In this document: in pieces, positions 1-64,000 of the stretch
Layout of the letters: the number at the start of each line of letters is the position of its first letter
Position numbering within the stretch: position 1 is the first letter of the stretch
Source: Tribonema minus
Taxonomy: Eukaryota; Sar; Xanthophyceae; Tribonematales; Tribonemataceae
Assembly (NCBI GenBank): GCA_017506865.1
Contig: JAFCMP010000036.1
Span: 248,001 to 312,000, forward strand
Reading direction: 5' to 3'
Length of the DNA stretch: 64,000 nucleotides
Position numbers and translations under genes: made by a program
The notes under the pieces: model-generated
What the model was told of the DNA's origin: nothing
Database searches by the model: none
What the model saw: the letters and a program-made list of their open reading frames with translations, nothing else

Positions 1-340
1 CAAAGTTTTGCATATCGAGGTCGCAGTTGAGATGGCGACGATGATATGTGTCAGAGCTCATCATTGGTATGTCACGGCATTCTGCGCTGGACAAGGCTGC
101 TGCACGCATGGCGTGATGTGCTGCTCGTCGTCCTGGCAGCGGCAGTTGGCATAGTGCAAACGTCTGCTTCAACCCCCATGCCTGAACCGTTTCTCTGTGC
201 GGCTTGAGCGTGCTATACTCAATTCGACATGTTGCGAACCCGCTCGCACCTGATCGAAACCCATAAAATTCCCTATGAGACACCTCTGACATTGAGTATT
301 TGTGTCGAATTTACGTTCCTGCGAGGGCTCGACACTCATT
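1..340. other. Window edge, no gene resolved
   Basis: No coding exon can be supported here. It may hold the promoter or an upstream intron of the EH-domain gene that follows. Confidence 0.4.
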
Positions 341-3300
341 ATGACCGTCGCTTGTCAGCATCTCCTCCTGTGTGGCAATGTACGGGTGTCTTCTCACATC
401 CGCAATCTCGCCATTGCACGCACACGCATTCCGTTACAGGAAGCTGCGCCATACAGCGGCGACGCGACCGACCCCCCCTCCAGGGCCAGGTGGCTGCTGC
501 TCTGCGGCGGCGGTGGTGGCGGCGGCGGCGCAGCGCCGCCGTGCCCAGACAACACGCCTGACAGCGCACTCGCCACCGCAGCCGGCACCGGTACTCCTCC
601 AGCACTGTCCGGCAGCAATGGGAGCGAAGCGTGTGCGGGTGAGCAGCCGGCAGGAGCCACGGCAGCGACGCGCGACGCCGTCTTGCAGGTGCTGCTGAGC
701 GGCGCTGCCTCTGTCGCGGATGTGTTGGAGTGGCTGGCGACGTGCGCTGGCGGCAGCGGCGGCAGCGGCGGCGGCGGCGGCGGCGGCAGCAGTGGCGGCA
801 ACGGCGCCGCGGCGACACTGCTGGAGGAAGTGAGGGCTGCGCTGCCGCCGGACAGGTGAGGCACGGAGTGCGGAGCCGTGAGCTGCTCAGCACTGGATTA
901 TTGCACGGTACTGGCGCGCCGTTTCACTGCGGTGAATCGCTATCTGTTGCAGCAGAGGAATGGAGGAGAATGTGGTGGTGGTATTGACAGAATCGGCGGT
1001 GGGTGTCTGTGGTGTGCTGCGTCGAGATTCTGGACCGCGGTGCTAGTCTAACCCTAACCCTAGCAGCGGATTTGTTGACAGGCCCGGGCATAGTCGGCAG
1101 CGGCTGGCCTGCAGCCACTGTCTTGTGCATTGAGGTGTCATGCTCCGCTCATGAAAGTCGCTGCTGGGTATAAACATGTCCTCAGCACGGTGCCTATCCT
1201 CTGGGCAAAATGACCGATAATACTTCACATGCTGGTGCAAGAAGTCAATTGTCAGTGTCGTTGAAGAGTATCGAAGCGCACGATGGTCGCGCCTGCTACT
1301 GGAGCTAGTAGGCTGCCTTGCAGGGCGAGTCTGCGCAGCAATTGAAGTTGCCGTTCACGCCCGCTTCACACCCTGATTGAAGTTGCGGTGTGCATGCATT
1401 GCAGGGCAAGCCTGCGCAGCGATCTGGACCTGCAGCTCGCCAGGTGGCGGCAGACAGATGCGGCGGCAGTGGCAGCTGCGCCAGCCACCGCGCGCGCCCG
1501 CGGCGGCGCGCGCGCAAGTGTCAAGATGTCCAGGTCAGAGGGCCAACAATGCTCGTATACGTCGTCTGTTGGGTGTTACGCATTGCCATGCTGTGCGTTG
1601 GCGCTGCCCTCACATTGTGTACCACCTGTCGCATTGACGCAAAGGCGGGGTGCCGTTACGCAGTCGGTGCCACCGTGCAGCATGACGTGTGTGGTCGCAC
1701 ATAAGCAGACTTATGTACACACTTGGAAAGGCAAAGAGCGGAAATGCTGCTGCAGTGGTGGAGCTACAAGCACCCCCCTTGCGCACACAGCCTCTTAGAT
1801 GTGGGATGAATGCCTGGCTCCAACTCTTTCAACCAGTGTGTCATCATAGTTTTTTTTTATTATTGTTAGGAACTGCCACAAGCTATCATTGCCATCCGTG
1901 AGTGTGAGCGCGGCGGCAGTCGCACCAAAGGCAGCATGGGTCATCAACGCAACCCACTTCAAGTGCAAGAGCTGCCTGTGACGCTCCGCATGATGCAGTG
2001 ACGTAAACGCACGCGGAGCGCTGCAGCGCGTCAACAGCGGCGGCAGCGGCGGCGGCGGCGCCGGCAGCGCCGCGTTCAGAGACGTCAGTGAGGTCAGCAG
2101 CAGGCACGCACGCGCATGGACATGCTGCAATGTGTAACGCGGCCGGCGTGCAGCCTGGTGGGGCCTTTAGCTGCAAATTTGCACTTCTGGACTTGTATTC
2201 AGTTATAAAAAAAGGCCCTGAGGGAGATTGCGCACAGAAAGGTACGTTGAAACACGCGCGAAAACACACAGATAAGCGCGCATCTGAGCTGCAAATATGT
2301 GCCCAATGTCGAACCCCCGCCATGTGCCTGCACGCGTACAAGTGTCAGCGCAATTACACTGGTCTGCATGCGTGATTGTATACATAAACGCGCCCCTCAG
2401 GGTCAGGGTCGGGGTTAAGGTTAGGGTTCGGGTTAGGGTTAGGGGGTGCCCGTCGATGAGCACCGTTGCTGGCCTACGTGCAGGCGCCTCTGTCACCACA
2501 CACCCTGAAGCTGACCGCACGCAGCATTGCGGCACGTGACGCACAGGCAACAACGGCTTTCGCGGAGGGCAGGTGCACTGTGGAAGAGCTGTACGACGAA
2601 TCGCTGCGGCCGGCATTCGGCGACGCGCTGAACCACGTCATCGGCGGAGCGCTGCTGTCGCTGCCGCGCGACCACGCGCGCGCGCTGCAGGAGCTGCACC
2701 TGCTCCGCACGCTGTCGCCAGGTGACTCTCCGCTCAGGCTGTCAATGTTGAAGTAACGACACTAGTGATGGTATTTGGGCCAGGGGGGGTAGGGCTGGCA
2801 GCTGACTGTCAGCCTGCTAGCCTTGGGTTTGGATGAGGGTGAGGTTAGGGTTAGGGTTAGAGACAAGGAGCAGCAACTCTGTGCGCGCTGTGTGCCGCGC
2901 TGCTGTCGTAGCGGCAGGCGGGCCTGGCAATGGCGCTCCCCCCCCGTGTCCAATGTCCGCACGCACATACGGCACAAGCTCCATGCCTGCGCGCAAAACA
3001 GTTCATTTCCATTTTGCGGCGTGCGCTGCGCACACTGACGTGCATGTCGCGCGTTGACCGCTGCAGAGGCCGTGACGGCACTGATGATGGGCCGCGGCGC
3101 ACCGACTAACGGCACATGTGCGTGAGACTTTTGCTGCCAGGCGGTGGTGGGCACTGCGCACCTTACCTCACACGCCACAACTTGACTCCAAACCGCAGAG
3201 GCCGTGACGGCACTGGCGATGGGCCGCGGCGCGCCCACCGTGGACGCGCTTCGTGCATCCGCACGCGGCGGCGCGCGGCGGCGCAGCAGGGCGGCGGACG

Positions 3301-6300: not shown

Positions 6301-9300
6301 TGGAGCCGCAGAACATTTTTTATGCCTTGCGTACAGACAAGTGTCCATGGTGTCAGCATCTGGCTGAGGCAGCGATAGGCACATTGCCCAGGATGGCGTG
6401 GAACCCTGTGCGGCAAGGTGTTGACTTCACCAGGGGCGCACAAAGGTTCAGCACACCGCACACAGGCCAGTAGGATGCAAGAAGCCTGGCAAGGATGCGC
6501 GTGCCTCCTTGCAGCTCCAGGATCAGGAATCCCACAGTTCCCTTCACCCCACATTTTTTAGGCCAGCGTCAACACTTGCACTTGAACATGCTTTTCATTT
6601 ATTCACGCTCGGGTCGTGCAAAACTTTGCTAAGCAAAGGCCAATTGATCAACATGAGTTTGCTAGCAGAGTCTATACATTCTCGCAACATTTTTGTCTGT
6701 GTGCATCGACGGTCACTACCATACTTCAAAGCATGTCACTTCCATACTTCAAAGCATGTCATTCATACCTTAAGATCTCGTCCGCACCCTGTCCAGAACA
6801 GTGCGCCACGGTCTGCGTTGCATCCTGCCGATCCCTTCTGACTCGCTCGTAGACCAGCCGTGCGGTCCATGCTACATCCATGTGCTGGTAGAGTTTACCC
6901 GACTAATTGACACATCGCGTTGCAACTTCAACTGTGGCAGGTCACTGCGGAGCAGTTCTACGTGGAGGCCATCCAGCCCCCGGGCGGCGGCGGCGCGCCG
7001 CGCAAGTTGGCCTGGGTCACCGCCAGGGTGAGCGGAGCACTGTCTGCTGAGCGCTGACATCGCCACGTTGATCATTTTTTAACCCTGACCTAACCCCATG
7101 CAGTGTATGTAACCCTGATGCAATCTTCATGACCTAGCCGTACGCCAAGCGTGGGTCGCATTTGAGCCTGGTGCGACACTGAAAGCAGCGGTGTCATGTC
7201 TCACACTGTGAGTGCCGCCTGCGTCAGCGCTGACTGGCTCCCGGGCAACCTCTGCGTGGCACTTCACCAGTCACCTTCTCACCAAGATGCAAACGACAAA
7301 AGCTCAACTGCTGGCATTGTTCAACCCGTCGCACTCATCACGTGCTTCTAGCAAGGCTGCGCTCTCACACCCGCTCCGCCAGTGCCCTGACCCTCGTTTA
7401 ACCTTCAAACTCGAAACTGACCACGCCCGCGCAGCTGCGCACAAAGCGCAAGCGTGCGGAGCTCGAGAAAGCGGCCGAGGCGCCGCTGGCGGCCGTACTG
7501 AGCGCTGCTGCCAATGGTTCAGCGGCGTCAGCGCTCGGCGGCAGCGCGCGCGGCGCTACCCCCTCCGAGGAGCTCAGCAGGGGGACCGAGCGGTACTGCG
7601 CGGGGGAGCTGACGGTGCAGCAGTTCTATCAGGTCAGCCTTAGGGGATAGGGTTAGTAAAGGGAAGGGTAAGGTCCTAACCCTGACCAGGGTTAGCTCCT
7701 AGCCCTAACCCTGAGCATCCACGACAGCAGTCCTGACGGCGCAACTCAGCTGGCAGCGCGGCTCAGCGGCGAGCGTTGAAGACACAGTGCCCGGTCTCTT
7801 GCTACATGAATGTTTACATTCGCTGTGTGAGTTGGATTCTAGCCCAGCCCTGTGGCGAGCTGCACAGGGTGCGTGCTGCTGTGTTCCAAGCCACAGCCGC
7901 CCGCGTCGGTGCGCTGAGGCTCTTCGTGCAGGGCAACCCTTACTGCAGGCTAAGCCAAACATTGTTTTGCAGAGTGCTGAGCGTTGATGGCCACTGAGTG
8001 CATTGTGACTGCTGGTCTTCCCCAGCAGCAATGCTGAGGGTTAGAATTAGAATTAGGCTCGTCGTACTACCACAGCTCGAAGCTGCTGCCCTCTATCTAA
8101 CAACACTACGAAGTAGTTGTGCTAGAGCCCAAGACCACACGAGACAGATGATGTTGTGGCGCATGTCGAAGGAAAGTGAGTGCGCCTCCCATCTTGCATG
8201 CGCTCTACACAATTGCCCATCGGCCATGCACAGCACAGGCACATTTCAACACACACAGGGGCACGCCACCTTGAAGTTTGTGTGTTGAATGTCACCGTGC
8301 CAACTTCAAGTTATGCGCGAGGCCGCCTCCACTTGTCTTCACCTCACTGGTCCCTGCGTCACCGTCCGACACAGGGCACGTCAACTTCAAGGAAGTACTA
8401 CGCCTTGACTACCTACCCGTGTCACCACTTGAAGTATGCCATGCCATGCATCAGTGACCTTCAACGCATCACTAATTCGCTTTTTTGTCGCTGCGCCAGG
8501 ACGTCCTGCTCCTCCTGGGGCCGCGGCTGGCGCAGACGCTGCCGCGCGTGTACAAGTCGCTGCCGCGCGACAAGGCTGAGGCGCTGCGCCGCTACATGCG
8601 TGGTGACCAGGAGCAGGAAACTGTTCAGGCAAGCCCCCCCCCCCCATTGTTCAGAATGGACACAGTTCTCTGCCGTGTAAAAGTGAGTTGAGGTGTTTCA
8701 CCAGTGAAGGTATGGCCATGAGCGCATGCACCCCCCCCCCTCATTGATGACATCGGACAAAGTTTGGTGCCATGCAAGCTTGCTCTGCCGTGCGTGTACA
8801 AGTCGCTGCCGCGCGACAAGGCTGAGGCGCTGCGCCGCTACATGCGTGGCGATCAGGAGCAGGTCAGGCAAGTCCCCCCCACCTCAGGCTCCCCCCTACT
8901 TACTGTTGAGAATCAACACATATTTGCTGCCATGCAAGGTGGACTTGGTGCATGTACTTGCTAGCAAAAAAGCAGATGGCTCAGCTGCAAGTTCAGCAAC
9001 TAGTGTATATCGGCGGACACACAATGGCTCAGCTCAGCAGATGATTCCAAACACTTGTTGAAACCAACAAACCAGACCAATGGCTCGATGTTGTGCATGT
9101 TGAGCATCACCGCACCAACAAGCACGCTAGCAGAATGCAACACTGCCATTCGTCACGTGCCACGAGCAAACCCTTCTCTTGTAAAGATCAATATGTTTCA
9201 TGCGATAGCATGCTAGTCCAGACAAGCTAGTCCAACCCTGACCCTGACCGAAGGCTCTCCAGACTTGAGGGGACAAAGTCCGCAAGCGCCAATGGCGACA

Positions 9301-11369
9301 GGTGGCCACTCACAACGCGTGTGTCAAACTCTTGACCTGATTCCGCTCGCTACTCACAATGCTCATGCTTGGCGCGCTTTGTTGACACGCCAGGACCGCA
9401 AGTCAATGGTGGTGCGCCGCGACGACAGCAGCGACGGAGGGGCTTTGTCAGCGGTGAGCTGCCGTGACGGGGTCATTGTCTTGGCTCACCTCCACGCATG
9501 TGTGCTCCTGTGCAACAAGCTCAATGCGCATAGAGTTCATGTCTAATGTACTACTTCAAACTTAAAGACTTAGTCTACATGTGATATTTCAAGTATGTCA
9601 AAGTACTTGACAGCGACAAGGGGATGGGGGGGGGAGGGGGGGAGGGTGGGGAGGCGTGTCTCAGCGGTGAGCTGCACCGGTGCAGTTGTTGCTCCTCACC
9701 GCAGCCACAACCGACATCCTATTCATGTACATGATGTCCGCTGCTTCAGGCCTAGGTTTAGGGTTGGCTCAAGGCCCAAGCTCAGCGCTGAACTCTGCAT
9801 TGTCTGGCAGCGCCCATCAAGGCAACAGATGAAACCGTCCAGCCAACGGTCAACCTGCACAGGCTGCCCCCCCCCTCCCTCCCCCCCCCGCTCTTTTCTG
9901 TGGCCCGGAGGTGCTCGCGCAATCAGAAGGCTGCACTTGACATCCAGGACGAGAACCAACCTACACGAGCCTTGCGTTGCTTTCAAGTTACGCACGACAC
10001 CAAAGCGACAGTGCAGATGACGGGAGGCGTGCTCCCTCAGACACACGCGCATCGCGTAGCCTTCACCAATGCAGACAGAGCGAAAGCACCCAGTGGCTGG
10101 CTGACACGTGCATCGCATAGCCTTCATCACTGCAGACAGAGTGAGCACCCAGCGGCTGGCTCATCTGGACATCCCCCGTGTCTCCCCGGGGCCCCATTTC
10201 TCCCCTACAGGACCCGGAGGTGCTCGCGCAGATGCGCGCGCATCTTTTCTAGTTGCTCCTCTAAAGCGGCCAAGCGCTGGTTGATCGTCAGAGGCGTGCT
10301 TGATATGATAGCCTAACGGCTAGTACTCTGCCGCAGCTACGTGCCTACGCTTGCTGGACGGTACCAGTCTTGAAGTGCTGAACACGTGCTGCTTCCCCCC
10401 CCTGGACGCTTCGCAGAACGCATCGCGCGCTGCCGCTGCCGCCGCCGGCGTTTACACAAATCTGCGGAACGTGGGGCTTAATCTCAACGGATCGCAAGGC
10501 AAAGCCCACTCTCATGCTTACAATACCCCGTTCCTTTCAGAGTCGTCTACAGAAAGACACATTCCGAGGCCTGTTCCCCACTTTCCCCCTCCTGCAGGAC
10601 CCGGAAGTGGTAGCGCAGATGCGCGCGCAGGAGGCGGCGCTGTGGGCCATGACGGACCAGCATCGCAAGGTGTATGCGGAGGCGTTCCGCAGGCTGGACG
10701 ACCTCGAGACGGGCGCCGTCGCGCCCGCCAAGGTGGTCCCCATCTTCAACAAGGTACTTGAAGAAGTACTTCATTCATTATGCTTGCGGGGCGATAAACC
10801 CCGCACGATGTATAGTGTGTAGAGTACGTGAAGGTGGTGCCCATCTTCAACACGGTAGTTGAAGTACTGGGCGCGAGTGGTTGTCACAGAGACACATTCA
10901 GACTGCCACACGACGTGCGTGAATTCCGTACAGCAAGATTTGGATGCCATTCATCTGGGCTCTTTCACGCCCTGAGCGAGAATCAATGAGAAGTGCTTGA
11001 TGATTTATTTATGGTTGAGGGGCGATAAACCCTGTATGGTTTGTGCTTGAGGGGCAACAAACCCTGTATGGTGTAGAGTAAGCTAGCGCACTGGCTCACC
11101 TTCCCCGCTCTGTCTCTTTCTGACGTCCGCGCTGCTTCCCCCCCCTGCCCCCCCCCCCCCCCCCCCCCCCCCCCAAGGCTGGCTTCTCCCAGAAGCAGCG
11201 CGCCAAGGTCTGGGAGCTGGCGGATCTCGATAGGGACGGCGAGTTCAACCTCACCGAGTTCAGCATCGCGTACCATCTCGTGCGCTGCGTGATGTTTGAG
11301 GGGCTGCAGCTGCCTGATACGCTGCCGGAAGCCTTTGCGCCGCTGGCGGCAGCGGCGCGGCGCGCCTGA
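341..11369 (+). CDS. EH-domain (Eps15-homology) protein, 13 or more exons
   Basis: EH domains bind NPF-type peptides on endocytosis and actin adaptors in the cytoplasm, so an endocytic scaffold role is inferred. Exons read: 341-855, 2525-2721, 3199-about 3389, 4229 or 4239-4445, 4654-4908, 5368-5627, 6016-6109, 6941-7027, 7435-7632, 8500-8628, 9394-9453, 10598-10753, 11178-11369. From 4654 to the TGA at 11367-11369 all phases agree. EH1 is split over 4654-4908 and 5368-5627 (WGMSDAQREQYVHAF, then VLHLAGAEHADALSR). It lacks the conserved Trp and the EF-hand ligands. EH2 (10598-10753 plus 11178-11369) keeps KVWELADLDRDGEFNLTEF, a full calcium loop. Two similar helical segments begin CTVEELYDES (2580s) and LTVQQFYQDV (7610-8510). 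The intron after 8628 has a GC donor. The start is uncertain (ATG 341, or an acceptor near 484), and the junction from 3389 to 4229 does not keep phase, so an exon may be missing or the acceptor is at 4238. Confidence 0.75.
2398..2447 (+). repeat. Degenerate TTAGGG block
   Basis: GGGTCAGGGTCGGGGTTAAG followed by TTAGGGTTCGGGTTAGGG-type units in an intron of the EH gene. Similar shorter blocks lie at 1050-1066, 2835-2862, 7080-7105, 7640-7712, 9230-9252, 26429-26470, 27137-27152, 45270-45360 and 47384-47400. Confidence 0.85.
3060..3106 (+). repeat. Acceptor-side echo of exon 3199
   Basis: About 45 bases copy the acceptor and first codons of the exon at 3199 (CTGCAGAGGCCGTGACGGCA and on to the GGGCCGCGGCGC stretch). 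The copy lies 135 bases upstream in the intron, with an intact CAG acceptor and a few substitutions. Confidence 0.85.
4492..4632 (+). repeat. Intronic direct duplication upstream of the EH1 exon
   Basis: Two diverged copies of about 70 bases (4492-4556 and 4567-4630) share TAGCTCCTG, then CCAT-CC-GCAC, then CCGAAACCGCTGA. They sit in the intron just before the acceptor at 4653. Confidence 0.6.
5083..5129. repeat. Perfect 16-bp inverted repeat
   Basis: CCATGATGCCAGCCTT at 5083-5098 is the exact reverse complement of AAGGCTGGCATCATGG at 5114-5129, with a 15-base loop that itself repeats CCATGATGC. It lies in the intron that splits EH1 and could form a stable stem in the pre-mRNA. Confidence 0.85.
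5675..6015 (+). repeat. Tandem repeats filling an intron of the EH gene
   Basis: Two about 34-base units (TCAGCACGGTACA...) at 5671-5740 are followed by units of about 50-65 bases built on TGTAACCACTGTCCTGCTTGTG up to the acceptor. One unit carries GTGCCCAGGGACGC, which resembles the real acceptor and exon start at 6011-6022. Confidence 0.7.
8789..8862 (+). repeat. Donor-side echo of exon 8500-8628
   Basis: About 74 bases repeat the 3' part of the exon at 8500-8628 (GTGTACAAGTCGCTGCCGCG and on to the GAGCAG end) with about two substitutions. The copy ends in a canonical CAG/GTCAGG donor, whereas the first copy continues to a GC donor at 8629. Confidence 0.9.
9655..9673 (+). repeat. Short donor echo of exon 9394-9453
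   Basis: TCAGCGGTGAGCTGC recurs about 210 bases downstream of the identical exon end and donor at 9448-9462. Confidence 0.6.
9896..10245 (+). repeat. Acceptor-side echoes of the EH2 exon
   Basis: Two partial copies of the start of the exon at 10598 (GACCCGGAAGTGGTAGCGCA) occur at about 9902-9922 and 10208-10240. The second keeps a pyrimidine tract, a CAG acceptor and GATGCGCGCGCA. They are diverged but in the same order and strand as the real exon. Confidence 0.75.
10828..11075 (+). repeat. Donor-side echo of the EH2 exon with repeated intron
   Basis: AAGGTGGTGCCCATCTTCAA at 10830-10850 copies the end of the exon at 10734-10753, followed by a GGTAGTTGAAGTA donor-like start. The adjoining intron motif GGGGCGATAAACCC...TGTAGAGTA also recurs at about 10788, 11018 and 11050. 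Confidence 0.8.
11148..11174 (+). promoter_or_regulatory. C27 polypyrimidine tract at the last EH exon
   Basis: 27 consecutive C precede the acceptor AAG at 11175-11177. The functional polypyrimidine tract here is therefore a C homopolymer. Confidence 0.75.
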
Positions 11370-13190: not shown

Positions 13191-16100
13191 CTACGCTGCT
13201 GCGGGGCACGCGCCGCCGCTGCCGCACCAGTCTGCTGCTGCCGTCGGCGGCCGCGTCAGACGCAGCGCCGCAAAGCGCCAGTCCAGCAGGTCGTGCGTCT
13301 GGAACGTCTCCGCGCCCGTCGCAGCGGTGAAGCCCACCCACGCGCGGCCGTGGGTGAGGCTCAGCGTGCCCTGCATCGGTGGGACCGGGCGCGCGGGGGG
13401 GGTGGGGGGGAGCCGGCGGGGGGGGCAGACTTCAGTTCAGTACATGGATGACATGAGGCATTCCAGAGCCAGGTGCATGCTTGACCGTTGCGCGCACAAG
13501 TGCCATCAGAGCTGTGTAGGACAGGGGGGCGGGGTGACGGGGGGGCAGGAGCTCAGATTGCCAACAAGTGCGGTCTTGTGCTCGCATTTGAGGTCAGGTG
13601 CATGCAGATGCATTGCCTTGCTGCATGAGCGTGGGCGTCGACGGCCAGGGGGGGAGGCTCGGGAAGGCGCAAATGGCTCTGTAGCCAGTCAGTTTTGGCA
13701 AGCCTTTGTTTTACCGCCACTATGACACAGCCAAGGGTGGCGGCCCTGCGCCGCCATTACACCATGTAAGAGAATGTCAGCGGCGGCCCATCGGGCGCGG
13801 CGCCCCATCTGGTGCGGCGCACACAGCAGGCTAGCCCTTGGCTTAGTTCCGTGATGTTCGGGTACCAACAGAGTTGGGCCTGCAAGCAACCACATGATTG
13901 TCAGCACGCACCCCGTACGAGGGTGCTGCAGACAACGAAGGCATCACAATCGTACAGCATTGCATCACTAGGCTTTGGAGCACAGCTCCTGAGTGCATAC
14001 TCCTTGTCATTGCCCACAGTGCTGAGCAAATACTGCAAACAGGATGCGGTGTACTCGCTGCCATGCGTAAACGCAAAGTTCACTTGCGGTTCAACTCGAG
14101 TACACCAGCGTTCGGCAGCAGAACCAGCTGCATGCGCAGCAGGTGGCCCGCCAGGACAGCGAACATGAGGCCATGCACATCATGCAATGCACCAACTGCG
14201 TAGAGTCCACTTTGAATACACACAGGTTCAGCGGCAGTCCACTCTGAGTACCTCGAGGTTCAGCGGCACCACAAGGCGCGGCCGCAGCATGTCGTCGATG
14301 TAGACGTACAGCAGCCCTATGCCGGAGCCCCAATCTGAAAAACCGCCACTGGCAAAGTGCCCACTCTCCAGGAATGTTGTGGCGTAAGGGGATGGGTCCA
14401 GCAGGCCCATTTGCAAGACCTGCAGCAGGGCGACGTGAGGGAAATGAAGTGGTTGTGCGGGTGCTGCGAATAATGTCCGCTGTGTGCGATCTGCAGAAGT
14501 GCAGCAAGGGGACACCAGGGTTTTTTTTTGTTTCCCCCAACCTGCCGTGTCAACAGCGCGTAGGGCGACCGCTATAATGCGGGTGGCGCACCATTGAGCG
14601 GATTGCTGTACTCCGCTGGCACGGCACACACCAGTTTGAACGACGCAGCCGATGCTGACGCAGTTGCCGCTCACGCTTGACTCTGTTGCAGATGCGTGTG
14701 CAGCCCACAGATGAGAGGCGGGGGCCCAGCTAAGCACGCCCCCACCCCCTCCCCCCCTGGAAGGCATGCATACCACCGGCGCCGCCCACCCACCTGGGCG
14801 TCGAAGAACGGGGTGTACACGACGCGCGCGGCGTGCGCGCCCTCGCTCAGATCCGGCACTGCCGCGGCGGTGCCGAGCGCGAACGCGTGGTGCGCGCTGG
14901 CACCCCCCTCATTCCCCCTCGTCACCACCGCTACATGGTTTTCGTATGCATCCAGGAGTTCCGGGTTGTAGTACGTGTCGAATTCAATCGCGAGTGCGTT
15001 GCGGATGCCTTCGTAGCCGAGGCCGCGTCCGGTGGCGCCGAGCGCGGAGGGGTTGTCGCCCTGGTTGAGAGATGTGGCGGAAGGGGGGGGGGCGGGGGGG
15101 GGGGGAGGGGGAGGGGGGTGTGAGGTGTTGTGGGGGGGCTGTGAATGCGGTGCGCGGGGGTGAGTAAAGGCCGATGGATGGTGAACAGACTGGAACGAAC
15201 CGTAAAAACAACGGAAAAGACGTTTTGTGGGAGTGCGCACGCTCGCGCTATTCTACACCAAACCAATGCGAAAGGAGATAAGTTCTGGTGAAGACCAAGA
15301 AGCCACCTGACATCAAGCATAAATCTCAGAACACGTCCTTCGAAGTTACGAAGTCAAGTCGGTGGCCAACGCCATCACTGCTGCTCTGCCTCAGGAGCGT
15401 CGTCCGGCGGGCTCAACGACCACACCGCCGCAAGAACACTCCATGTGCGTGCAAACTCACTGAGCACAAGGCACTCGTGCATGGTACCGGCTTGTGTTAC
15501 TTGCGCGATGGCAAGTCCAGCACCCACCATCTCCAGCAAATGCAAATACGCACTTGCGGCTCACAGGCAGCAAATCAGGAAGCTACACGCATGCGTGCAC
15601 CGCCGTGACGGCTGACTGTCACCGCCACACCAACGCGATTCTGCGCCCGCCAAGTCATGGAGTTCGCAAGCCTGCATGCTACTTCAAAGTGCTTGTACAT
15701 GGTGATGTTGGGGCGTCACCTGCACGATGAACGCAAAGCCGTCCGCTCCGCGCGCCCTGCAGAGGCTGTTAATGCCATCCAACGTGCTGCACCTGCGCGC
15801 ATGCGCGCAGCGGCGGCAGGGTGACAGCAGTCGTGATCGAGGCGCAGTCAGGCGCGCGTGGCGGCGTCAACAGAGTCAGTCATCCACAATGATTACACAA
15901 GAAGGCCTGCAGAGGCTGTTAACGCCGTCCACAGCGTGCTGCACCTGCAGTCGTCAATGAGGCGTAGTCGGGCGCCAGCGGTGACATCAGCATGAGTCAT
16001 CCACATAAAATACACTGGGAGCATAGGGCCCTTTGAATCTTGAAAAACAGTCAAAACCTCAGGAAGTGATGGAGTTGCTTGTTTGATTGACGACGTGGTG

Positions 16101-45600: not shown

Positions 45601-47648
45601 TTGCGCCGCCTGCAGCGCAGACAGAGCATCGGGGTCGCGCACCAGTAAGCATATGCGACTGCCTTGCATACGCCCCCGAGGGTGCCGCGCGGTCCCCATC
45701 TATGCAGTGTTACACAAGAGCCGCTCTCTATAAGCGCAGTGGTCAGCTACGCGATACATGGTCGCTTCTCGTAGTGTCTCCAATCTGCAAATAGCACTGA
45801 CTGCGCCGCTCAATGATGTCATGCCTCAACGCGCAGCAGCGCCGCTGAGCCGGAGCGCGCAGCCGCCACACGGATAGCAGGGCACTGCAAATTGGTCACA
45901 TCATGTGCTGCCTCTGACCTGCAAATAGCACTCACTCACCGCAACGCTTACCCGATGTCACGCCTAACTCAACGCGCAGCGACGCTGCCGAGCCGGTGCC
46001 TGCGGCCGCCATACACCCTGCTGCAGAGCACTGCGAACTGGTCCCATCATGCAGTAGTCGTACACACTGCTGCAGAGCGCTGCGAACTGGTCACATCTTG
46101 CAAACAGCACTCACTGCAACGCTCAACAACGTCACGCCTCACTCAACGCACAGCGACACCGCCGAACGGGTATGGCGCGGCCGCCATACACATTGCTGCG
46201 GAGCGGTGCGAACTGGTCACATCATGCACATAGCGCTCACTGCAACGCTCACACAATGTCGCGCCTCACTCAACGCGCAGCGACGCCGCCGAACCAGTGC
46301 GCGCGGCCGCCATACAGATCGCTGCGGAGCACTGCCCCCACAATGCCGCGGTGTTGGGCCTGCTGCTGGGGCGCTGCGCGGACCCCGGCGCCCGAGTGCG
46401 CGCCGCCGCCATCAAGCTGGTGAGCAGCGATCACATGGCTACGCAGCGTGCGCATGCGTGCGCCTGTGTTGCAAAGCTGTTGGTGGTTGCGTGCGCCTGT
46501 GTTGCAAAGCTGTTGGTGGTAGTCGCTTGCTTGTAGTCAACGTTGAATTTCTTCGACGAAGAAGGGCGAGAGAGACCAGATCGCTGTGTGTATGCGCATG
46601 GTGCGGCGGCGCGCGGGCGCAGTGTGCCACGGGCACGCCGCAAGCGATGAAAATTTCTGGCGCGCACAGAACGGCCCCACGCACGTGTGATTCGCCCGGC
46701 GCGTGCCGCTTCATACTTCTTTGAAGTACCTCCTGCAACCGCCACCTGCACTGCATGTTGCACAAGCCAAAGACCTCTCCGACGCGTGCGCTGCACCGCA
46801 CGCCAGCCACCACACACCACTCAATTCAGCACCGATATGTGTGTGAGTACGTACGCGTGTGCGGCGCCGCAACCTGCAGGTGCTGGACCGCTACGGCGTT
46901 CAGCAGCTGCACAGGGCGCTGCCGGCGGACGTAGCGGACGTGCTGCCGCGGCTGCTGACGCACTACGCGTCCATTGTCACCCCCGACGCGGATCAGGCTC
47001 AGCCGCAGGGCTCGTCAGTCTCGCCAGGTATTTGAATTGAAAAGCGAATTGGTGTTCCAGCTGTGCGTGTCAACTCATCTGCAGTTCATAGTTATAGGTT
47101 TGCGGCTCTTGACCTTGTGCTTTGATACCAAGCTTCGGCTTGCATGCGTGCGAGTCTCACAGTACATTCTCCTCTCTGCCGTTGCACCCGAACTCCCATC
47201 GCCACATGTACCATACCTCCCTGTACCATATCCGCCTGCATGGCAAAAAGTCTCACCCCAGATCAGTGCGGACTTAGCAGGAGCATGCGACCTCGCCGAG
47301 CACTGAGCGCACAGATCGCCACACAGGCTGCACCCGCGCCTGCTTCACGCTTTCGCCGGCCCCGCGCCTCTACTGCACTGCGCAACCCTAACCCTACCCC
47401 ACCCACCTCACACCGCCGCGCCTGGCGACACCTTCCACCTTTTGTGCGCAGCGGAGCGCGAAGGCCTGCACACGCTCGTGCGCGCGCTTGTGCTGCAGTG
47501 CGCGGCGGGCGACGCCGCGGCCGACGTGACAGCGCTCGACGGCGCCGCGCTGCTCGCCGCCGCGGCGCGGCTGGCAGCGCTGAGCGCGACGTCGCCGTCC
47601 GTGCAGGACCACTACTGCGCCGTGGGGCAGCTGCTGTCAGTGGGTTGA
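39663..47648 (+). CDS. HEAT/armadillo-repeat protein, 10 exons
   Basis: An alpha-solenoid scaffold of unknown role. Exons 39663-40109, 40548-41013, 42103-42248, 42748-42840, 43335-43496, 44578-44625, 45367-45473, 46281-46419, 46880-47027 and 47452-47648 (TGA) are all phase-consistent, giving 650 residues. The N-terminus is acidic (ESAGEEDEDVVMEDAGG) and Ala-rich. Exon 2 has a Gln/Ala/Asp-Ser low-complexity segment and a poly-Gly/Glu run. Clear HEAT units lie at about residues 455-590 (DAAEPVRAAAIQIAAEH, then ADPGARVRAAAIKLVLDRYG). Helical pairs before this (RRTLTLSLLQLLEPE, LRVLAKELLAS) fit the same fold. The intron after 44625 has a GC donor. Condensin-type or importin-type relatives are possible, but no diagnostic motif is seen. 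The last exon could instead splice at CTGTCA/GTGGGT (47639). Confidence 0.78.
41155..41400 (+). repeat. Two donor-side echoes of HEAT-gene exon 2
   Basis: GCAGAGGCCGCGGAGCGCTG at about 41172 and its near-copy at about 41343 repeat the exon end at 40974-41013, through CTCTTCCAGG and the following GTGCG-type donor. Intron text (CACCGCGTGCA) is repeated too. The second copy is closer to the exon than the first at some positions. Confidence 0.9.
41652..41676 (+). repeat. G homopolymer (25 nt)
   Basis: An uninterrupted run of 25 G in an intron of the HEAT gene. Length is likely to vary between individuals or sequencing runs. Confidence 0.95.
42280..42322 (+). repeat. Donor-side echo of HEAT-gene exon 42103-42248
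   Basis: GTGCCCTGCCAGGTGAGAGCTGCGCCACGCG recurs about 54 bases after the same sequence at the real exon end and donor, with one or two changes. Confidence 0.85.
43795..44512 (+). repeat. Long diverged direct duplication inside a HEAT-gene intron
   Basis: Two blocks about 300-480 bases apart share order and wording: CAGTGTTGTCATGC/GTTGTCGAGCTCTTGG...; GAAGTTGATGATCG against GAAGCTGCTGATCG; then GCATCCGCCCCACCGCTGGGCTG (44155) against GCGTCTGCCCCAAAGCTGGGCTG (44450) followed by GTGCGCAATTATGCGGA-type text. There is no coding content. A short AAAACACGGTG tandem lies at 43974-44030. Confidence 0.65.
45826..46262 (+). repeat. Array of acceptor-side echoes of HEAT exon 46281
   Basis: Three or four units of about 110-130 bases (starting near 45828, 45958, 46050 partial, 46135) each contain CTCAACGCGCAGCGACGC-like acceptors, then GCCGAGCCGGTGC, then GCGGCCGCCATACA-like text matching exon positions 46271-46335, then intron text GCGAACTGGTCACATC. 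Copies differ by substitutions and small gaps. Confidence 0.88.
46441..46522 (+). repeat. Tandem duplication after HEAT exon 46281-46419
   Basis: GTGCGCCTGTGTTGCAAAGCTGTTGGTGGT appears twice in direct succession (about 46456-46486 and 46491-46521). Confidence 0.9.
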
Positions 47649-52100: not shown

Positions 52101-53477
52101 TTCAAGTATTGCACTTTGTCCACAAACTCCAGGCCGGCTGTTTGGCACAAATTACCTGCGCAGCTCTGCGCACTGCACAACATCCCTTCAACACCTGTGG
52201 CGAGAGTCACACGCATCAGATCTACACTTGAGCCGTTTGCCATGCACAACAAGTATGCACCTGTTTGCTGATTGGTATAGCTGGCTCTTCCACTCTTTAC
52301 TGGTTGCCTATTCTGCTTCCTGTTGTGCATGCATGGGTCCCCTTCGCTGCTTTGTGCCATGTCCTGCTGTGCAATTCATGAGCTGTTTGCATGCTTGCAA
52401 CTAGAATTCAGAATGGGCAAATGTGCCTCTGGGATGTTCATGCTTTGTCGTGGTATCAATGGTGTCATCTGGGCGCATGGCAACACAAAGGCACTGTGGC
52501 ATGGCTGCTTGAATGCTCATGCTACTTCTATGTAGCAACTGCCTGCCAGATGCTGTGAAAGGCACACCTCTGTAGGCTTTTGCTGATCAAGCAAAGAGGG
52601 AAATTGGGGCGCTGGTATAAGGCAAAGCATGAATTGAAGCAGCACACTCGGTAAGAGCCATGAGGATCGCACTGTTCTTGCTTTCAGCCCTTTTTATTCG
52701 AGCTTGAACACACAGCAGGCGAATGCTACAACGTTGATGAGGTCATAATCATTTGTCAAGGCAGATTATCATCATGTTATGCATCATGTGCAGCGCTGAC
52801 AACAAGCATTCTAGTAAGGTAAACAGCATCACTCATATGCAGAAACCAACGCTCAATGATGTGTTGGCGGCCAAAATTTCAGCCAATGAGTCTGAAAGAC
52901 CAGAGATGGGGTTGTGCCAGCGACAAAGGCAGGTGCACGCATAGTGAGTGAAGGCATGTGAGTCCCATCTGCGCTGTCTATCATGCGTGCGTACATTTTG
53001 ACATGCTGCATTGCTCTTGTGCATGTTGCGTTGCACTAGCTCAACATTGAAGCACACACATGAGGCAGCAATTTACTGGATAACACCTGCATTGTGACAA
53101 TCATGTACAGGCAAAAGTAAGTGCGATAGACCACCAGTGCTTGTGGCTGCAGCTACGTCAAAGGGCCAGCCTCTTTTGAGGCCTGTAGACACAAGTCAAC
53201 GGGTGCTACTGTTGTCACACTGCACCATGATGGTGGGCCCGGATGCACACCGTTGCCGGCCTGAGAAGCAGTAGAGTTTTTGCCCACAGCTACCACTTTG
53301 ACGCACATGAATGGCAACAGCCCTGTCAAACTCATGCTGAGCGCAAGCAATACGTGGCGCCCTGGCTGCCTCAAGCAGCCCCCCACCTCATGTAATTGAC
53401 TCTGGGCACATCTAGCCCCTACTTCTATAGCTATGCCCCTTACTTCCAAGGTACTTCAAGAATACCACCACCACCCT
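49105..53477. other. 4.4 kb with no confidently resolved gene
   Basis: Possible pieces: the minus-strand 49157-49653 frames (perhaps the 5' part of the preceding gene); a plus-strand exon-like block at about 51380-51480 ending in ACA/GTAAGT (IGKLQLEDDKNRCAHRIM); and a plus-strand block at about 52836-52930 (ATGCAGAAACCAACG) ending CAG/GTGCAC. A 118-residue plus-strand frame at 50458-50814 contains HIHYADDSALC. None can be joined into a gene. The region is less GC-rich than its surroundings. Confidence 0.4.
50809..50836. repeat. Perfect 28-bp palindrome
   Basis: GTGTAGTGTAAT followed by ATAT and ATTACACTACAC reads the same on both strands. AT-rich centre, no loop. Confidence 0.9.
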
Positions 53478-53783
53478 CGCCGCCGCCGCCGCCGCGGCGC
53501 GTCAGTCAAAGAAGTCAACATGCGCGCCGCTGTCAACCAGCGCCCCGATATGGTTTACTACCGCCATGCCCCTAACTGATAGCTATGCCCCCTACGTTCA
53601 AGCTACTTCAAGTATACTGCTGCCCCCCTCACCGCCGCCGCCGCGGCGCGTCAGTCAAAGAGCTCGATGTGTGCGCCGCTGTCAACCAGCGCCCCGATAT
53701 AGTCTACTACCGCCACACCCCTAAGCGATGGCTATGCCCCTGCTTGACTGCGCCGCGGCCTCCCTCGCCGCCGCCGCGGCGCG
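53430..53783 (-). repeat. Two tandem echoes of the sepiapterin reductase stop-codon end
   Basis: Units of about 150 bases (from about 53435 and 53587) repeat plus-strand GCCGCCGCGGCGCGTCAGTC plus AAAGA(A/G)..., matching the true gene end at 53770-53800, including the stop codon, then GTGCGCCGCTGTCAACCAGCGCCCCGATAT. The downstream text (CTACCGCCA..CCCCTAA...GCTATGCCCC) is repeated in each unit. They lie downstream of the gene. Confidence 0.9.
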
Positions 53784-56902: not shown

Positions 56903-58182
56903 CTGCGTCCTTTCTGCGAAGCTTGTCTGGCGAGCTGGCGTTGATGCAGTCACAATTGACCACGTAGCTTCCAGACCGCTCAGGGCGATACTGGCGTTAA
57001 TGCAGTCACAACTGGCCAAGATCCTGCTGTCAGCTCATGCGATCACTTTCTGTCACGTTCGTTCAGTTCGCTGACAGCTCATGCGATCACTTTCTGTCAC
57101 GTTCGTTCAGTTCGGATCAACTTCAACTCGGTTGTTGAAGTTGAAGTGCAGAAAAGAGGGACCTAGGACTACATACGACGACGACGACTACTGTCGTATT
57201 TTGTTAAGAAGTCTCACATGCGGCCTCTAGTACTTCGCATTACAGTAAGATGATACACGTATCTTGTGCAGAGGTCACCGGGATGGCGTAGCTCAAATTA
57301 TTGAGCGCTTTGCCCTCTTGCATTGTAAGCTAGGTAGTGCCAGACTTCTGGACTTTCCAGCCTTTGTGCTTCGTACACATGCAGATCGCCCAAGTTCCTG
57401 CAGTGGGGTCATGTCACGCCATGATCAGAGTGCGCTGATCCTCACCAGTTAAGCATGTCGTTGACGTCGTTGGCACAGGAGCTGGCGCAGCGCGTCATGG
57501 TGTAAAAGTGCAGGGCACAAATACTAGCCTGTGCTGTAGCACCCGGTCCAAGCTCTTGGCACGCATTGCAGACTAGGTTGCCTCATAGGGTGCAAAACGT
57601 AGAAACACAAACACACCGGACACCTGGCCTCTCCTGGGGCCCTTGACAACAAGTTCACAAGTATGTACATCGAGCAAAGCCATGGGTGCCGTGTCAAGCG
57701 AGCATGTGCACCAGCAAAAGTATTCGAGCCTCTAGCAAGACTTGCGATTCAAGCAGCATAACACAAGTGCTGCGCCGCGCCCAGTTTCACCGGTTCCCTC
57801 ACATTTTTGACCTCATCAGGGGTGCTTCGATGGGCTTGGTGGCAGTTGAGTCCAAGCATACTATGGAGACTGGACCACCGTGGTCTCATACGGGGAGCGG
57901 CCGTACATCGCAACAAGCCTGGCTGTGGTGTAACCACGTCTGGCAGGTAAGTTGCCGAAGGCGAAGGAGAAGGGGGTAGTGGGGGGTCAGTCGCACCAGT
58001 CCGCACAAGCGGGGGTGGGACAAAGGCGCCGGCTGCAGCTAACAACTGTGGCTTCTGCCCTCAGGCTGATAGAGTTGCAAAACTAAGGCGCTGGAAGACA
58101 TACTTCGCCACGCCACACTGACAGCTGCATGCGCCTTATTGAAGCTGATTTCGTTGTGGCGATCGTTGTCCCCTGTTCACAT
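56903..58182. other. Intergenic region with tandem repeats
   Basis: GACAGCTCATGCGATCACTTTCTGTCACGTTCGTTCAGTTCG occurs twice in a row (about 57025-57115), preceded by two copies of ATGCAGTCACAA (56945, 57000). At 57120-57150 CAACTTCAAC and GTTGAAGTTG form a small stem. No gene is supported from 57160 to 58182. Confidence 0.6.
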
Positions 58183-59580: not shown

Positions 59581-59823
59581 GTTGACACTGCCTTGTGAGG
59601 GCTCGCCTTAAGGGGCAGGGCTAAGAAATGAATCGCCTACTCCTGCCTTGCTGATTCCTTCCTTTTCTCGCTCTCACACTCACTCTCTCTCTCTCTCTTC
59701 TCCTCCTCGAAGCTCTTCACTTTTTCTTCTTCAACTCAGAGGTGAAGTTCGAAACGCTTGAAGTTAAGTGAGGTTTTGTTTCGAGACGAGAGGTGTGGTT
59801 CATGAGCGCAGAAGCCGCTGAGG
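59581..59823. promoter_or_regulatory. Divergent promoter with CT/GA microsatellite
   Basis: 243 bases between two opposed ATGs (59580 minus, 59824 plus). It holds a (CT)n-rich tract at about 59670-59735 (CTCACTCACTCTCTCTCTCT). This pyrimidine-rich core promoter would serve both genes. Confidence 0.55.
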
Positions 59824-62800
59824 ATGGTAGGAGCTGCAGGCGAACCAGCAAGTCGGGCTATGTCACCGGTCTTGCTGCCAAAACAGGTGCAGTCACCCAC
59901 GCGGTTGCTGAGGCCCTCTCTGGCGGACCTGGTCGGCAAAGAGGGGCTGAGCTATGCTGATGCCAGGAAACAGATCGCCAGGTACGTGCTTCTAATTTGT
60001 GTTTTCCATACTTTCCGCACGCATACATGTCAAGGCCAGCAGAATGGGGACTTACGGAACACATCTGGGTCTGAAATACTTTGAAGTCCACAATGAAGAT
60101 CATTGCACTACGAGGAGAGATTTAGTTGGTTGAGTCCAACACGGGAGGTTGGTCAACTTACTGGGCATAAATGGGTTCTGATGCGTTTTTGATACAAGGT
60201 GAAATGCACTATCTTTGCAGGAGCTTCAAGTCACCATACCTTGTGGTTGCATTCGTGATGGACACTAAGTGAGATGTGCTGAGTGTGAATCACAGTACAC
60301 TGGTGGCTGCCTGTTAGGCTGTCGATGCGGTGACGCCAGCATGATATGCTATACCGCTGTTGAACACGCGTATCATCGCTCGTGTCGCACTTTCCTCCAT
60401 GGCCGAACAACGCTGCAGCCATTGCAATGACGGATGGCATCGTGATGATCTTCATCGGGCCACTCGTGCGCATTTCGTTTCACGAAGAGGACGATATTGC
60501 GCTTTGTATCAGCAAATGAGGTTACACAACTGCTGCACAGGTACTGTTCCGACAGCTGGTCTTTCAAATCGGAATGCTTCACGCTCCGCAACAACGTGCG
60601 GCTGTGCTCTCACATAGTGTTGCACACTTGAATAATTGGTCAGCATGTACCTGAATAAATGCGCTGTACGCGAATTGACTTTGTGGCTTGGCGGCAGCAG
60701 CAGAGTGCAGCCGCAAATTGTGGGAGCAGACATGCGTTCGCTGCACACACGTCAAGTGGGGAAAGTACTCCTACCCGGTACAGACGCTAGCGGGACGCCA
60801 TACTCGGGGCGCACACACGATCAACGTGCCGTGAGCGACTGTACTAGCCTCAGCGACAGTAGAAGTTGTTACTTTAATGCACTTCAACTGGTTGATCTTC
60901 GAGTCGGACGCAATGCTGGCGCGTGTCGAGGTGCCAGCTCAACGATACCTCCTGCACGTGCGCTGCCCGGACCGGTGTGCTGTGGCAGTGGCCATGCTCG
61001 CATAAACTGAGTCGTGGCTTCGTTTTGCCCCCCCATAGCAGTGCAAGTACGTGGCTGCAAACGTGTACGACAATCTTCTTTGGGCACGTCTCAATACTCG
61101 TCAGACAGCATACGTGTGCAGGCACCACACACAAGCAGAGTTCACGACCAGCCCACTCCCGCGCCTACTCAGCAGCAGGGGGAGCGCCCCCTCTCGCTGA
61201 CGTCACCCTCGCCGTGCAGCAGGCATGCCCCCCCTTGCACTTCTGCCATGCACGTGTAAGCAGCACTCTGGCCCACTGCTTTGCATACCGTATAACTAAC
61301 TGCTCGCACCTCTCAGCAGGTACGCACATGAGCTCGCGCGGCACGCGTCGCAGCAGCAGCGCTCGGCAGCAGTGCTCTGGCGCGGCAGAACGCGACGTCG
61401 CGCCACGCAGACAGCCTCCCAGCCTAGCACCACCCACCATAAGGACAACCATCCCACTGCACGCAATTTGCGAGCAGATGTGCGCACGAGCGGCACGTCG
61501 AGCGCACGCACGCCGCCGCGGCAGCTCTCCGACGCAGCAGATCGTGAGGTTGCGCCACGCAAAAACCCTTTTAGCCTAGCACCGTACTACTGCATGAATG
61601 AAGTTCTCGCACCGCGCGCAACTCGCACGCAGGTACACGCAAGAGCGGCACGCCGAGCGCGCGCGCGCCGCCGAGGCGGCGCTCCGGCAGCAGCAGGACG
61701 CGACGTACGCGCGCGACGTCGCGTCGCGCGCCGCCACGTGGGGCAACCCCACGACCGCCAACGCGATCGAGCGCCTGCACGCGCGCGACAGGGAGGACGC
61801 CGCGCGCGCCGCGCTCATCGCCAACTCCACCAAGGTATGTACGGGACGCGCATACGATGTTTGCATGTACAGATGTACTTAAAGTGTACAGAAGTATAGC
61901 ACATGTGCCAATGTATGCAGACTTTACTTCTGTGTTCTGACAGGGAGGACGCCGCGCGCGCCGCGCTCATCGCCAACTCCACCAAGGTGCGGGACGCGCG
62001 TACGATGTGTGCGTGTACATATATAAACATGACTCTACGTGTCTGATGTGTGTAGACCTTGCTTCGGATGTAATTCCATATCTGACACAGAGGATGCCGC
62101 GCGCGCCGTGCTCATCGCCAACTCCACCAAGGTACGGATGCGCATACAATGTGTGCATGTGCATGTATACTTCACCGATCCATTCACTCAGCACGGCATG
62201 CAGCACATGCCCAGGACCCCGGCATAAATGAGTGACGTAAGCTAGGGGCCGCAAGTTCACTTCACCGCCCCCTCCGTTTCCCGCTCAACCCCTCGCTCAA
62301 GCGTACCACACTGAAGTACATGTAGCAGTATGTGATGTATAAGTAGACCATACTTCATATGTGTGTCTGGCGGGGCGGATGCCGTGTGTGCCATGCTCAC
62401 CGTCAAGTCAACCCAGGAATATCTGCAGTCAACGCCGCCACTTCTAGCTCTCGAAGTACAAGCCATTTGTAATGAAGAGAGGGGGTGGGGAGGATGTACT
62501 TGGTTGTTCTCTGCTGTAATCATGGTTCTCCAGCGCGCCGCCATAGCAGCGAGCGCGGTGAGCCCGAGCAGCTGGCGGCAGCGCTCAGCATTTGCATACA
62601 CACCGCCGCCACTGAAGCACGGGCATGCCGCGGCGCCTGAAGCCAGTCGCAGGTAACTTTCCTGCATCTGCTCGTCCAACGCACGAGGTCAACACACAAA
62701 TATGAATCATGCGTCTATGTGAAGCGCGTCTCAGTCGGCCCCTCTGCGCTGGGTTATTCCCATTCCCTGCCCCGCAGCGCAAGGCCGGCAAGCGCGAGGC

Positions 62801-64000
62801 GCAGCTGGCGGCGGAGCGCGCGCGCCGCGACGCGCGCGCGGACGCCGCGCAGCTGCTGCACGGCGTGCGGCGCCTGCTCACCGCGGGCGTCCTCGACCTG
62901 CCGCAGCAGGGCCTCGCGGCGCTGCCGCCGGACGTGTCCACCACGCTCGCCCTGCAGGTGCGCGCCCCTGCCTCACACGTACTCGTGTTGTGAGTGCTTC
63001 GCGTGAGGACTTGGCACAACGATCACCGTGCTGAAAACCTGGTGTCGTGACGCGCTGAAACTAGTGTCGTGACACAAAGTTCAGCATACATGAAGTGCAT
63101 GTTGAAGTACAGACTTGAACTACATACTTGAAGTGCTCTGCTGCCGCGGCAGGGCCTTGCGGCGCTGCCGCCGGACGTGTCCACCACGTCGCCCTGCAGG
63201 TGGGCGCACCTGCCCCATATGTGCTCATGTTGTAAGTGCTTCGCATGAGGACTTGGCACAACGGGCCGTCGCGCTGAAATCAGTGCTGTGAAGCAAAGTT
63301 CAGCGTACATACTTGAAGTTCATGTTCAAAAGTACATGCTTTGAAGTGAATACTTGAAGTACATACTGCAAGTGCTCTGCTGCCATGGCGGGGCCTCGCG
63401 GCGCTGCTGCCGGAGGTGCCCACCATTCTCGCTCTGTAAGTGCTCCAATGCTGCCCTTGTAACAGTACTTCAAGCTTGCATCGTTTATTCCTTTGAGTCT
63501 TTGAAGGGTCCATGCCTGCCTTCGCTGTGCAGCGCATGTGTCGCGGAAGCGTGACCTGTAGGGCCTTCCTTGCGCACAGTAGGAAGCATCGGTGCCCTGG
63601 GGCTCTGTGATGCTCTAACCTTTCAGCTTATCCATCCCCCAACGCTGTTTGCCCTCAGCGCAGTGATCTCCAGCAGGTTCGCCTGCCTTCCAACATGTGC
63701 CGCCTGCGCTTGGTGGCTGTGTGGCCGGGCGACGCTTCATGCAGTGCCACAGCTGCCTGCTTGTGCGCGTCATGGCAACGTAACACTCGCGTCATAGAGC
63801 AAACATGGGGTCAATGGCTCACGTGCACTGAAGTTGGTGTCCCCACCACAGTTGCGGCGCAAGCTCGACGCACAGCCGCCACACACATGCCCTGCTGGCG
63901 GCGCTGAGTTTACCCCATGAGCGAGGTATTGAGGCTGCCTCCAATACGTGAGCACTGCTGCCACACCCCCATTTGTGCCCACCGCTTACCCTTCGGCAAG
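59824..64000 (+). CDS. Charged coiled-coil protein, 3' end beyond window
   Basis: Function not recognised. Exons 59824-59981, 61633-61834 and 62778-62957 join in phase to 180 residues, and the gene continues off the window. The N-terminus reads MVGAAGEPASRAMSPVLLPK. From about residue 40 the sequence is a highly charged helix rich in Ala/Arg/Glu (QERHAERARAAEAALRQQQ, then LAAERARRDARADAAQLL), typical of a coiled coil. A less charged segment follows (TAGVLDLPQQGLAALPPDV). It may be cytoskeletal or flagellar, but that is only a composition-based guess. Exons 2 and 3 are each surrounded by echoes of themselves. Exon 4 was not found before 64000. Confidence 0.68.
61318..61572 (+). repeat. Two acceptor-side echoes of coiled-coil exon 61633
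   Basis: Units at about 61318-61440 and 61455-61585 both carry GCGCGGCACGCGTCG/GAGCGGCACGTCGAGCGC, then GCAGCAG, then GACGTCGCGCCACGCA/GAGGTTGCGCCACGCA, then CCTAGCACC. They resemble the exon at 61640-61730 plus the intron before it. Diverged but collinear. Confidence 0.72.
61938..62140 (+). repeat. Donor-side echoes of coiled-coil exon 61633-61834
   Basis: GAGGACGCCGCGCGCGCCGC through ACTCCACCAAGGT is repeated at 61944-61989 (almost perfect) and 62090-62133 (few changes), each with an AAG/GT donor and the following GGGACGCGCATAC-type intron. A third, worn copy may lie at 62376-62417. Confidence 0.92.
62958..64000 (+). other. Intron or 3' part of the coiled-coil gene at the window edge
   Basis: Apart from the echoes described I see no exon with confident borders. 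Several TACTTGAAGT motifs occur between 63065 and 63375. Confidence 0.4.
63138..63442 (+). repeat. Two donor-side echoes of coiled-coil exon 62778-62957
   Basis: CAGGGCCTTGCGGCGCTGCC through GACGTGTCCACCACG, followed by a GCAGGTG donor, at 63150-63202. A more diverged copy lies at 63388-63442. The intron after the exon (TGTTGTAAGTGCTTCGC, GAGGACTTGGCACAACG) is repeated with the first copy. Confidence 0.9.

Follow-up and report, generated by a model that had tools for sequence, protein, structure and literature searches.

Echoes of exon borders in the introns of Tribonema minus, probable products of recurrent local tandem duplication

Introns of Tribonema minus (Xanthophyceae) hold copies of their own borders. 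In a 64-kb stretch of its genome (contig C36, positions 248001-312000; hereafter the window) and in further sequence sampled with it, segments that straddle an exon-intron border recur on the same strand within the adjoining intron, and we refer to these copies as echoes. The existence of border echoes was confirmed in a sample of 264 kb, made up of the window, 50 kb on either side of it, and 50 kb each from contigs C1 and C10; these blocks were picked by us, have a G+C content of about 58-63%, and represent a small share of the 158,181,000-base, 554-contig genome. We consider it likely that the echoes are products of recurrent local tandem duplication. A narrower proposal, which we advance with more doubt than confidence, is that a mutational process anchored at borders, chiefly donors, repeatedly copies from about 50 bp of exon to about 110 bp of intron, with the introns of this lineage lengthening at their edges and no mobile element taking part; the two lengths are typical values and there is no fixed unit.

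Splice borders were called ab initio with a two-strand gene hidden Markov model (HMM) trained on the sequence itself, which returned 29 genes with 221 introns. Introns made up 56% of the sample, donors were mostly AG/GTGAG-like (the slash marks the border), and acceptors were mostly GCAG. By a rule of our own, 20 of the 250 predicted exons were local copies of another exon in the same gene, which is a warning for annotation in its own right; these were removed before counting, and 201 introns remained. Independent support for the gene models was limited: a Pfam match above the cut-off was found for 3 of 10 raw frames of the window and for all of five predicted proteins, picked by eye from eight (EF-hand, Ras, primase small subunit, WD40, and methyltransferase), and the primase small-subunit protein showed an unbroken match to solved primases across a junction with two echoes, the one border checked by homology. 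Each border was then compared with its own adjacent intron, with query and target non-overlapping, and hits were counted at scores of at least 34 and at least 56. At the lower threshold, 81 of 396 borders had a same-strand copy in their own intron and 3 of 396 an antisense one; at the higher threshold the counts were 64 and 0. Within the window, 17 of 92 borders in 5 genes had a same-strand copy and none an antisense one at a score of at least 34, in rough agreement with the original count of at least 17 borders in five or six genes, and 12 same-strand and no antisense copies remained at a score of at least 56. Two of the 17 borders (41212 and 62131) lie on short HMM exons that we take to be echoes, of donors 41013 and 61834 respectively, and those donors themselves fell below the threshold because their echo was called as an exon.

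The copies were specific to the intron next to the border. Of 374 exon ends of 40-75 bp, 61 matched their own adjacent intron on the same strand and no antisense match was tabulated, whereas the introns of other genes gave 89 same-strand and 72 antisense matches, each among 69,828 pairs; the next intron of the same gene gave 12 same-strand matches and 1 antisense match, each among 654 pairs. Exon-like segments from non-adjacent exons, whose equal frequency would have spoken against border echoes, were thus far rarer than those from the adjacent exon. Since matches to other genes lie near the antisense background, no element family is seen spreading in the 264-kb sample, and mobile elements, like slips of assembly, are a scarcely credible source of the echoes. 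Misassembly is a well-known hazard of tandem arrays; however, copy and source diverge by as much as 21%, and the copies carry a codon-position pattern (described below) that no assembler would make. Introners occur in algae and place copies in many genes, whereas each copy described here resembles the border beside it and scarcely anything in other genes. A trait that the two share is a change of intron content on a genomic scale (PMC9860276).

We described the anatomy of the echoes from copies with a score of at least 56 and at least 12 bp of exon, a set of 93 copies (of 97 hits) at 61 borders. These comprised 42 donors and 19 acceptors, a roughly twofold preponderance of donors, and carried one copy at 40 borders, two at 14, three at 4, four at 2, and five at 1. 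Identity between copy and source over the aligned part ranged from 79 to 100% (median 89%), and the lag to the nearest copy was 90-250 bp at 55 of the 61 borders, with a median of 164 bp that may hint at a nucleosome- or Okazaki-sized unit. The exon part measured 15-96 bp in 40 of the 42 donors and 15-66 bp in all 19 acceptors, it exceeded 100 bp in 1 of 24 cases where the exon was at least 180 bp long, and units were placed non-uniformly with respect to the border (Kolmogorov-Smirnov p 0.0009, n=21). As is characteristic of local tandem duplication, the copies were on the same strand and more often than not head to tail: local repeats within 4-kb windows were direct in 245 cases and inverted in 8, and the spacer between units was at most 15 bp at 37 of the 61 borders. 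A reading of the young copies as short, non-tandem copies was softened accordingly, as permissive alignment shows head-to-tail units at these 37 borders and the reading holds for a minority. Furthermore, introns with arrays were longer than others (median 894 compared to 470 bp), as had been supposed, and array spans made up 17% of intron length. Under recurrent tandem duplication, a segment consisting of an exon edge and the adjoining intron would be duplicated in tandem on the same strand; the copy lying away from the exon body is indeed located in the intron. The duplication would be tolerated because the spliceosome would keep using the copy that adjoins the exon body, leaving the protein unchanged, and the intron would grow by one unit per duplication.

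The fate of the copies bears on whether they are instead real extra exons, such as tandem mini-exons or cassette or poison exons, that are kept for a function. Some echoes are indeed flanked by AG and GT, three echoes in the window were called as in-frame HMM exons of 36-39 nt, and a third of donor echoes lose their similarity right at the splice site. However, mismatches between copy and exon amounted to 7.0% at the first codon position, 7.3% at the second, and 16.2% at the third, 35 of 40 indels in the exon part were not multiples of 3 and so break the frame, and about 15% of bases differed in the aligned intron part of the copies. This pattern is the expected one if the exon is under selection while the copy is free: constrained sites would then show the divergence of a single lineage, and synonymous sites and introns about twice as much. 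Divergence at positions 1 and 2 is that of a neutral copy. The GT was retained in 55 of 61 donor copies and the AG in 22 of 25 acceptor copies, close to the neutral expectation of about 0.86 (0.93 squared) for a two-base site at 7% divergence. The reported retention of AG and GT is therefore real, but it matches what neutral decay predicts for young copies and gives no sign of function. Together with a paralogous region that lacks such copies (see below), these data make functional extra exons very unlikely, and show that the copies, with a few in-frame cases of 36-39 nt as possible exceptions, are neither coding nor visibly kept as splice sites.

The echoes had also been linked to intron gain through duplication of exon segments containing AGGT. 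Donors that are mostly AG/GT and copies that are largely in tandem are what this model requires, but the donor and acceptor borders of the same intron were alike in 4 of 192 introns (score of at least 40), compared to 0.4 by shuffling, and the best of these four was an echo that had been called as an exon. Thus, the proposed link was not supported for most introns, and we regard a footprint of intron birth as exceedingly improbable.

Paralogues differed in their echoes. L041 (contig C1) and L042 (contig C79) are paralogous pairs of light-harvesting genes with about 90% alignment identity in exons. L041 carries two upstream copies of an acceptor border, at lags of 176 and 312 from the border and 136 between the copies, and two further arrays at both ends of one exon of its second gene. 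In the paralogue alignment, L042 had none of these acceptor echoes and neither of the two further arrays. The only repeat in L042 (lag 447, 69%) is matched by one in L041 with a lag of 450. The simplest reading of the alignment is that the L041 arrays were gained after the paralogues split, although their loss from L042 is possible. The graded identities of the copies, and their presence in one of two paralogous regions and absence from the same places in the other, bear out the earlier suggestion of a recurrent process. A second comparison, between L043 (C70:83001-87000) and L044 (C489:4001-8000), which are 99.9% identical over 3.9 kb, is uninformative on polymorphism because no arrays lie there, and a second haplotype was looked for in a single stretch, 53-56 kb, where none turned up. 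The near-identity of L043 and L044 indicates that the assembly includes some redundant or allelic contigs. Genes for light-harvesting proteins are many in the genome, with 92 exon-level matches, and the best single-domain relatives of the proteins are in red-plastid algae, a label that reflects our reading of the hit names.

We asked whether borders are favored over other positions, or whether tandem duplication occurs at a uniform rate and its products merely appear to favor borders through selection against exonic duplications and better detection of copies that contain exon. Arrays were sought in intron sequence alone, in 192 introns of at least 120 bp (147 kb), so that slower decay of exon parts could not aid their detection. 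Of 64 such arrays, 42 continued over a border (exon echoes plus extension), compared to a mean of 17.0 under uniform placement (sd 3.4, maximum 30 in 5000 draws). The remaining 22 were confined to the intron interior (0.15 per kb), a density near that of intergenic sequence, in which 8 arrays were found in 63 kb. Random queries of the border type, in a closely similar test whose targets were about one third shorter than those for borders, found copies at 9 of 600 intergenic positions, 6 of 600 positions in intron interiors, and 1 of 58 positions in the middle of long exons, whereas 42 of 201 donors had copies. G+C content alone was considered as the cause of the donor excess and set aside, as the excess remained several-fold in matched bins up to 0.70: below 0.60, copies were found at 7 of 43 donors, 1 of 17 acceptors, and 36 of 1621 noncoding positions; at 0.60-0.65, at 14 of 53, 6 of 45, and 15 of 385, respectively; and at 0.65-0.70, at 15 of 56 donors and 8 of 114 noncoding positions. 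Above 0.70 the counts were 6 of 49 donors, 5 of 73 acceptors, and 0 of 16 noncoding positions, the last a comparison with 16 positions only. A rigid-shift placement null (79 echoes compared to 24.6 expected) neglects selection and was not relied on.

A uniform rate is nevertheless in keeping with several observations. Arrays do exist in intergenic sequence and intron interiors (about 0.13-0.15 per kb), those in the interior are built of units of much the same size (median 164), and copies containing exon diverge more slowly, which eases their detection. Copies also occur at 5 of 58 gene ends, namely 2 of the 29 stops and 3 of the 29 predicted starts, so coding edges in general may account for some of the effect. 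In exons of at least 250 bp we found 7 arrays in 24 kb, their first-listed alignments being 60-71% identical, and at least one young pair lies within a predicted exon, in the C10 block at 31600 (94% over 35 bp) with a lag of 111, as in one of the seven exon arrays. Young duplications wholly within exons are thus rare, yet present, which fits purifying selection. Given the excess of border-crossing arrays and of donors over random positions, we consider a uniform rate without border preference rather unlikely.

Several observations weigh against recurrent tandem duplication as the full account, and some of them point to a different origin of the young copies, namely gene conversion of the copy by the exon, or the copying of short exon ends by template switching. 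Every border was called ab initio. The pattern varied among contigs: at a score of at least 34, copies were found at 24 of 78 borders on C1 and 49 of 232 on C36, and the pattern was weak on C10, with 8 of 86 borders and a repeat cover of 7% in introns compared to 4% in intergenic DNA. The acceptor excess was slight at a G+C content of 0.65-0.70 (7 of 66, to be set against the noncoding count given above), and the uniform-placement null omits some bias of selection and detection, for which up to about twofold is to be allowed on account of the slower divergence of exon-containing copies. More than 40 bp lay unaligned between copies at 19 of the 61 borders, including 6 of the 10 borders whose nearest copies were most similar (identity of at least 94%), which is unexpected of fresh, simple tandem duplications. 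In addition, 23 of 68 donor echoes ceased to be similar within 10 bp of the border; of the 21 testable ones among them, only 10 retained related intron flanks. Finally, exon-part identity and flank similarity were uncorrelated (rho 0.09, p 0.42, 90 copies), so that the copies do not decay in a clock-like way. Some copies may therefore owe something to conversion by the exon or to the copying of exon ends by themselves, and some may be subject to gene conversion or template switching. That either makes most of the young copies, however, is fairly improbable, as 37 of the 61 borders have head-to-tail units, lags are narrow, and 50 of 65 donor copies and 24 of 25 acceptor copies still have flanks whose relatedness exceeds the 95% null.

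Two causes could underlie the excess at borders, and these are the ones that we favor. Exon DNA, or the exon-intron edge, may be prone to duplication via transcription, chromatin, or replication, with only duplications that cross the edge surviving selection; or long exonic copies may be removed because they are spliced in, which would account for the short exon part and for the smaller number of acceptors. The excess of donors over acceptors could perhaps also arise because a duplicated acceptor is more easily misused. Anchoring of the process at borders, if real, could reflect positioned chromatin near the ends of exons, or else co-transcriptional events at the 5' splice site.

Known systems share parts of this pattern. 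In the RdRp gene of potato, a tandem duplication across an intron-exon boundary made a new intron (PMC4974935; PMC3443670 is a review of routes of intron gain). The potato case resembles ours in being a within-gene tandem duplication that crosses an intron-exon boundary and carries splice signals along, but it is a single described event that created an intron, whereas Tribonema introns hold decaying copies of their own borders and give no sign of new introns. Among repair-mediated local duplications in primates, partial exon/intron donors made up 4 of 824, and copies at most 50 bp away were excluded as tandem (PMC2671141). These too are copies of nearby DNA, a few of them of partial exon plus intron, but unlike the primate set as there described, the copies in Tribonema are near exclusively in direct orientation and enriched at splice borders. 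Spaced copies in either orientation are a trait of repair by synthesis-dependent strand annealing; here a minority of copies are spaced and inverted ones are near absent.

Internal gene duplication, reportedly described by Gao and Lynch in 2009 as duplicated exons or intron-containing segments, would be alike in the frequent duplication of parts of genes. We found no description of recurrent border-crossing copies in introns in the literature searched, a weak negative given that it covered few subscription papers and others in part. Intron lengthening apart from transposon insertion is poorly known, and with decaying self-copies at 16-20% of sampled borders, the rate, size, position, and fate of duplications become directly measurable. 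Moreover, each echo is a potential competitor of its border that is apparently tolerated, and the echoes thus offer many natural experiments on the choice that the spliceosome makes among near-identical sites.

The echoes located in the window are listed in Table 1.

Table 1. Border segments, their echoes, and related arrays in the window (positions in window coordinates)
Feature	Position	Strand	Evidence
Donor border 62957, source segment	62898..62961	+	self-BLAST, alignment, gene model
Echo 1 of donor 62957; exon part with one-base deletion, GT retained	63141..63249	+	
Echo 2 of donor 62957, more decayed	63380..63443	+	
Donor border 61834, source segment	61787..61880	+	self-BLAST
Echo 1 of donor 61834, lag 152; 61948-61986 called as HMM exon, 39 nt, in frame	61939..62025	+	
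Echo 2 of donor 61834; 62093-62131 called as HMM exon, 39 nt, in frame	62084..62172	+	
Tandem array, lag 152, extending into 5' part of predicted exon 61598-61834	61366..61696	+	
Donor border 41013, source segment	40957..41018	+	self-BLAST
Echo 1 of donor 41013; 41177-41212 called as HMM exon, in frame	41164..41219	+	
Echo 2 of donor 41013	41324..41438	+	
Donor border 8602, source segment	8539..8644	+	self-BLAST
Echo of donor 8602, about 95% identity, lag 246, about 104 unaligned bases between copies	8785..8883	+	
Echoes 1 and 2 of donor 28423 (minus-strand gene), at 28192-28319 and 28031-28113	28031..28319	-	
Echoes 3 and 4 of donor 28423, at 27786-27896 and 27602-27728; units about 184 bp	27602..27896	-	
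Echo of donor 32720 (minus-strand gene), lag 178	32503..32632	-	
Echo of acceptor 32912, on the other side of the exon with donor 32720	33002..33090	-	self-BLAST
Three echoes of acceptor 46280, at 45792-45888, 45935-46034, and 46106-46204; neighbor lags about 126-134	45792..46204	+	
Echo of donor 16131, minus-strand gene with weak lectin match	15764..15846	-	self-BLAST
Echo of acceptor 3198; similarity stops at border	3063..3106	+	self-BLAST
Short echo of donor 10753	10831..10864	+	self-BLAST
Weak echo of donor 42248	42288..42332	+	
Two copies crossing the stop codon (53784-53786) of a short-chain dehydrogenase gene, in its 3' flank	53427..53740	-	

The array at the stop codon of the dehydrogenase gene is the same pattern at a coding edge other than a splice site. 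Telomere-like TTAGGG arrays also occur away from contig ends, at 2399-2444, 25060-25097, 32437-32514, and 55693-55721 of the window, and the third of these overlaps an echo array; across the 264 kb, 7 of 8 perfect TTAGGG runs of at least 3 units lie in predicted introns, which make up the 56% of the sequence noted above. On the minus strand of the window, 58186-59607 is an open frame of 474 codons outside the predicted genes and without a Pfam match. From 61598 onward and past the end of the window, one large gene is predicted, whose product has what we take, by eye, to be leucine-rich-type repeats followed by GCPWD-type ankyrin-like repeats.

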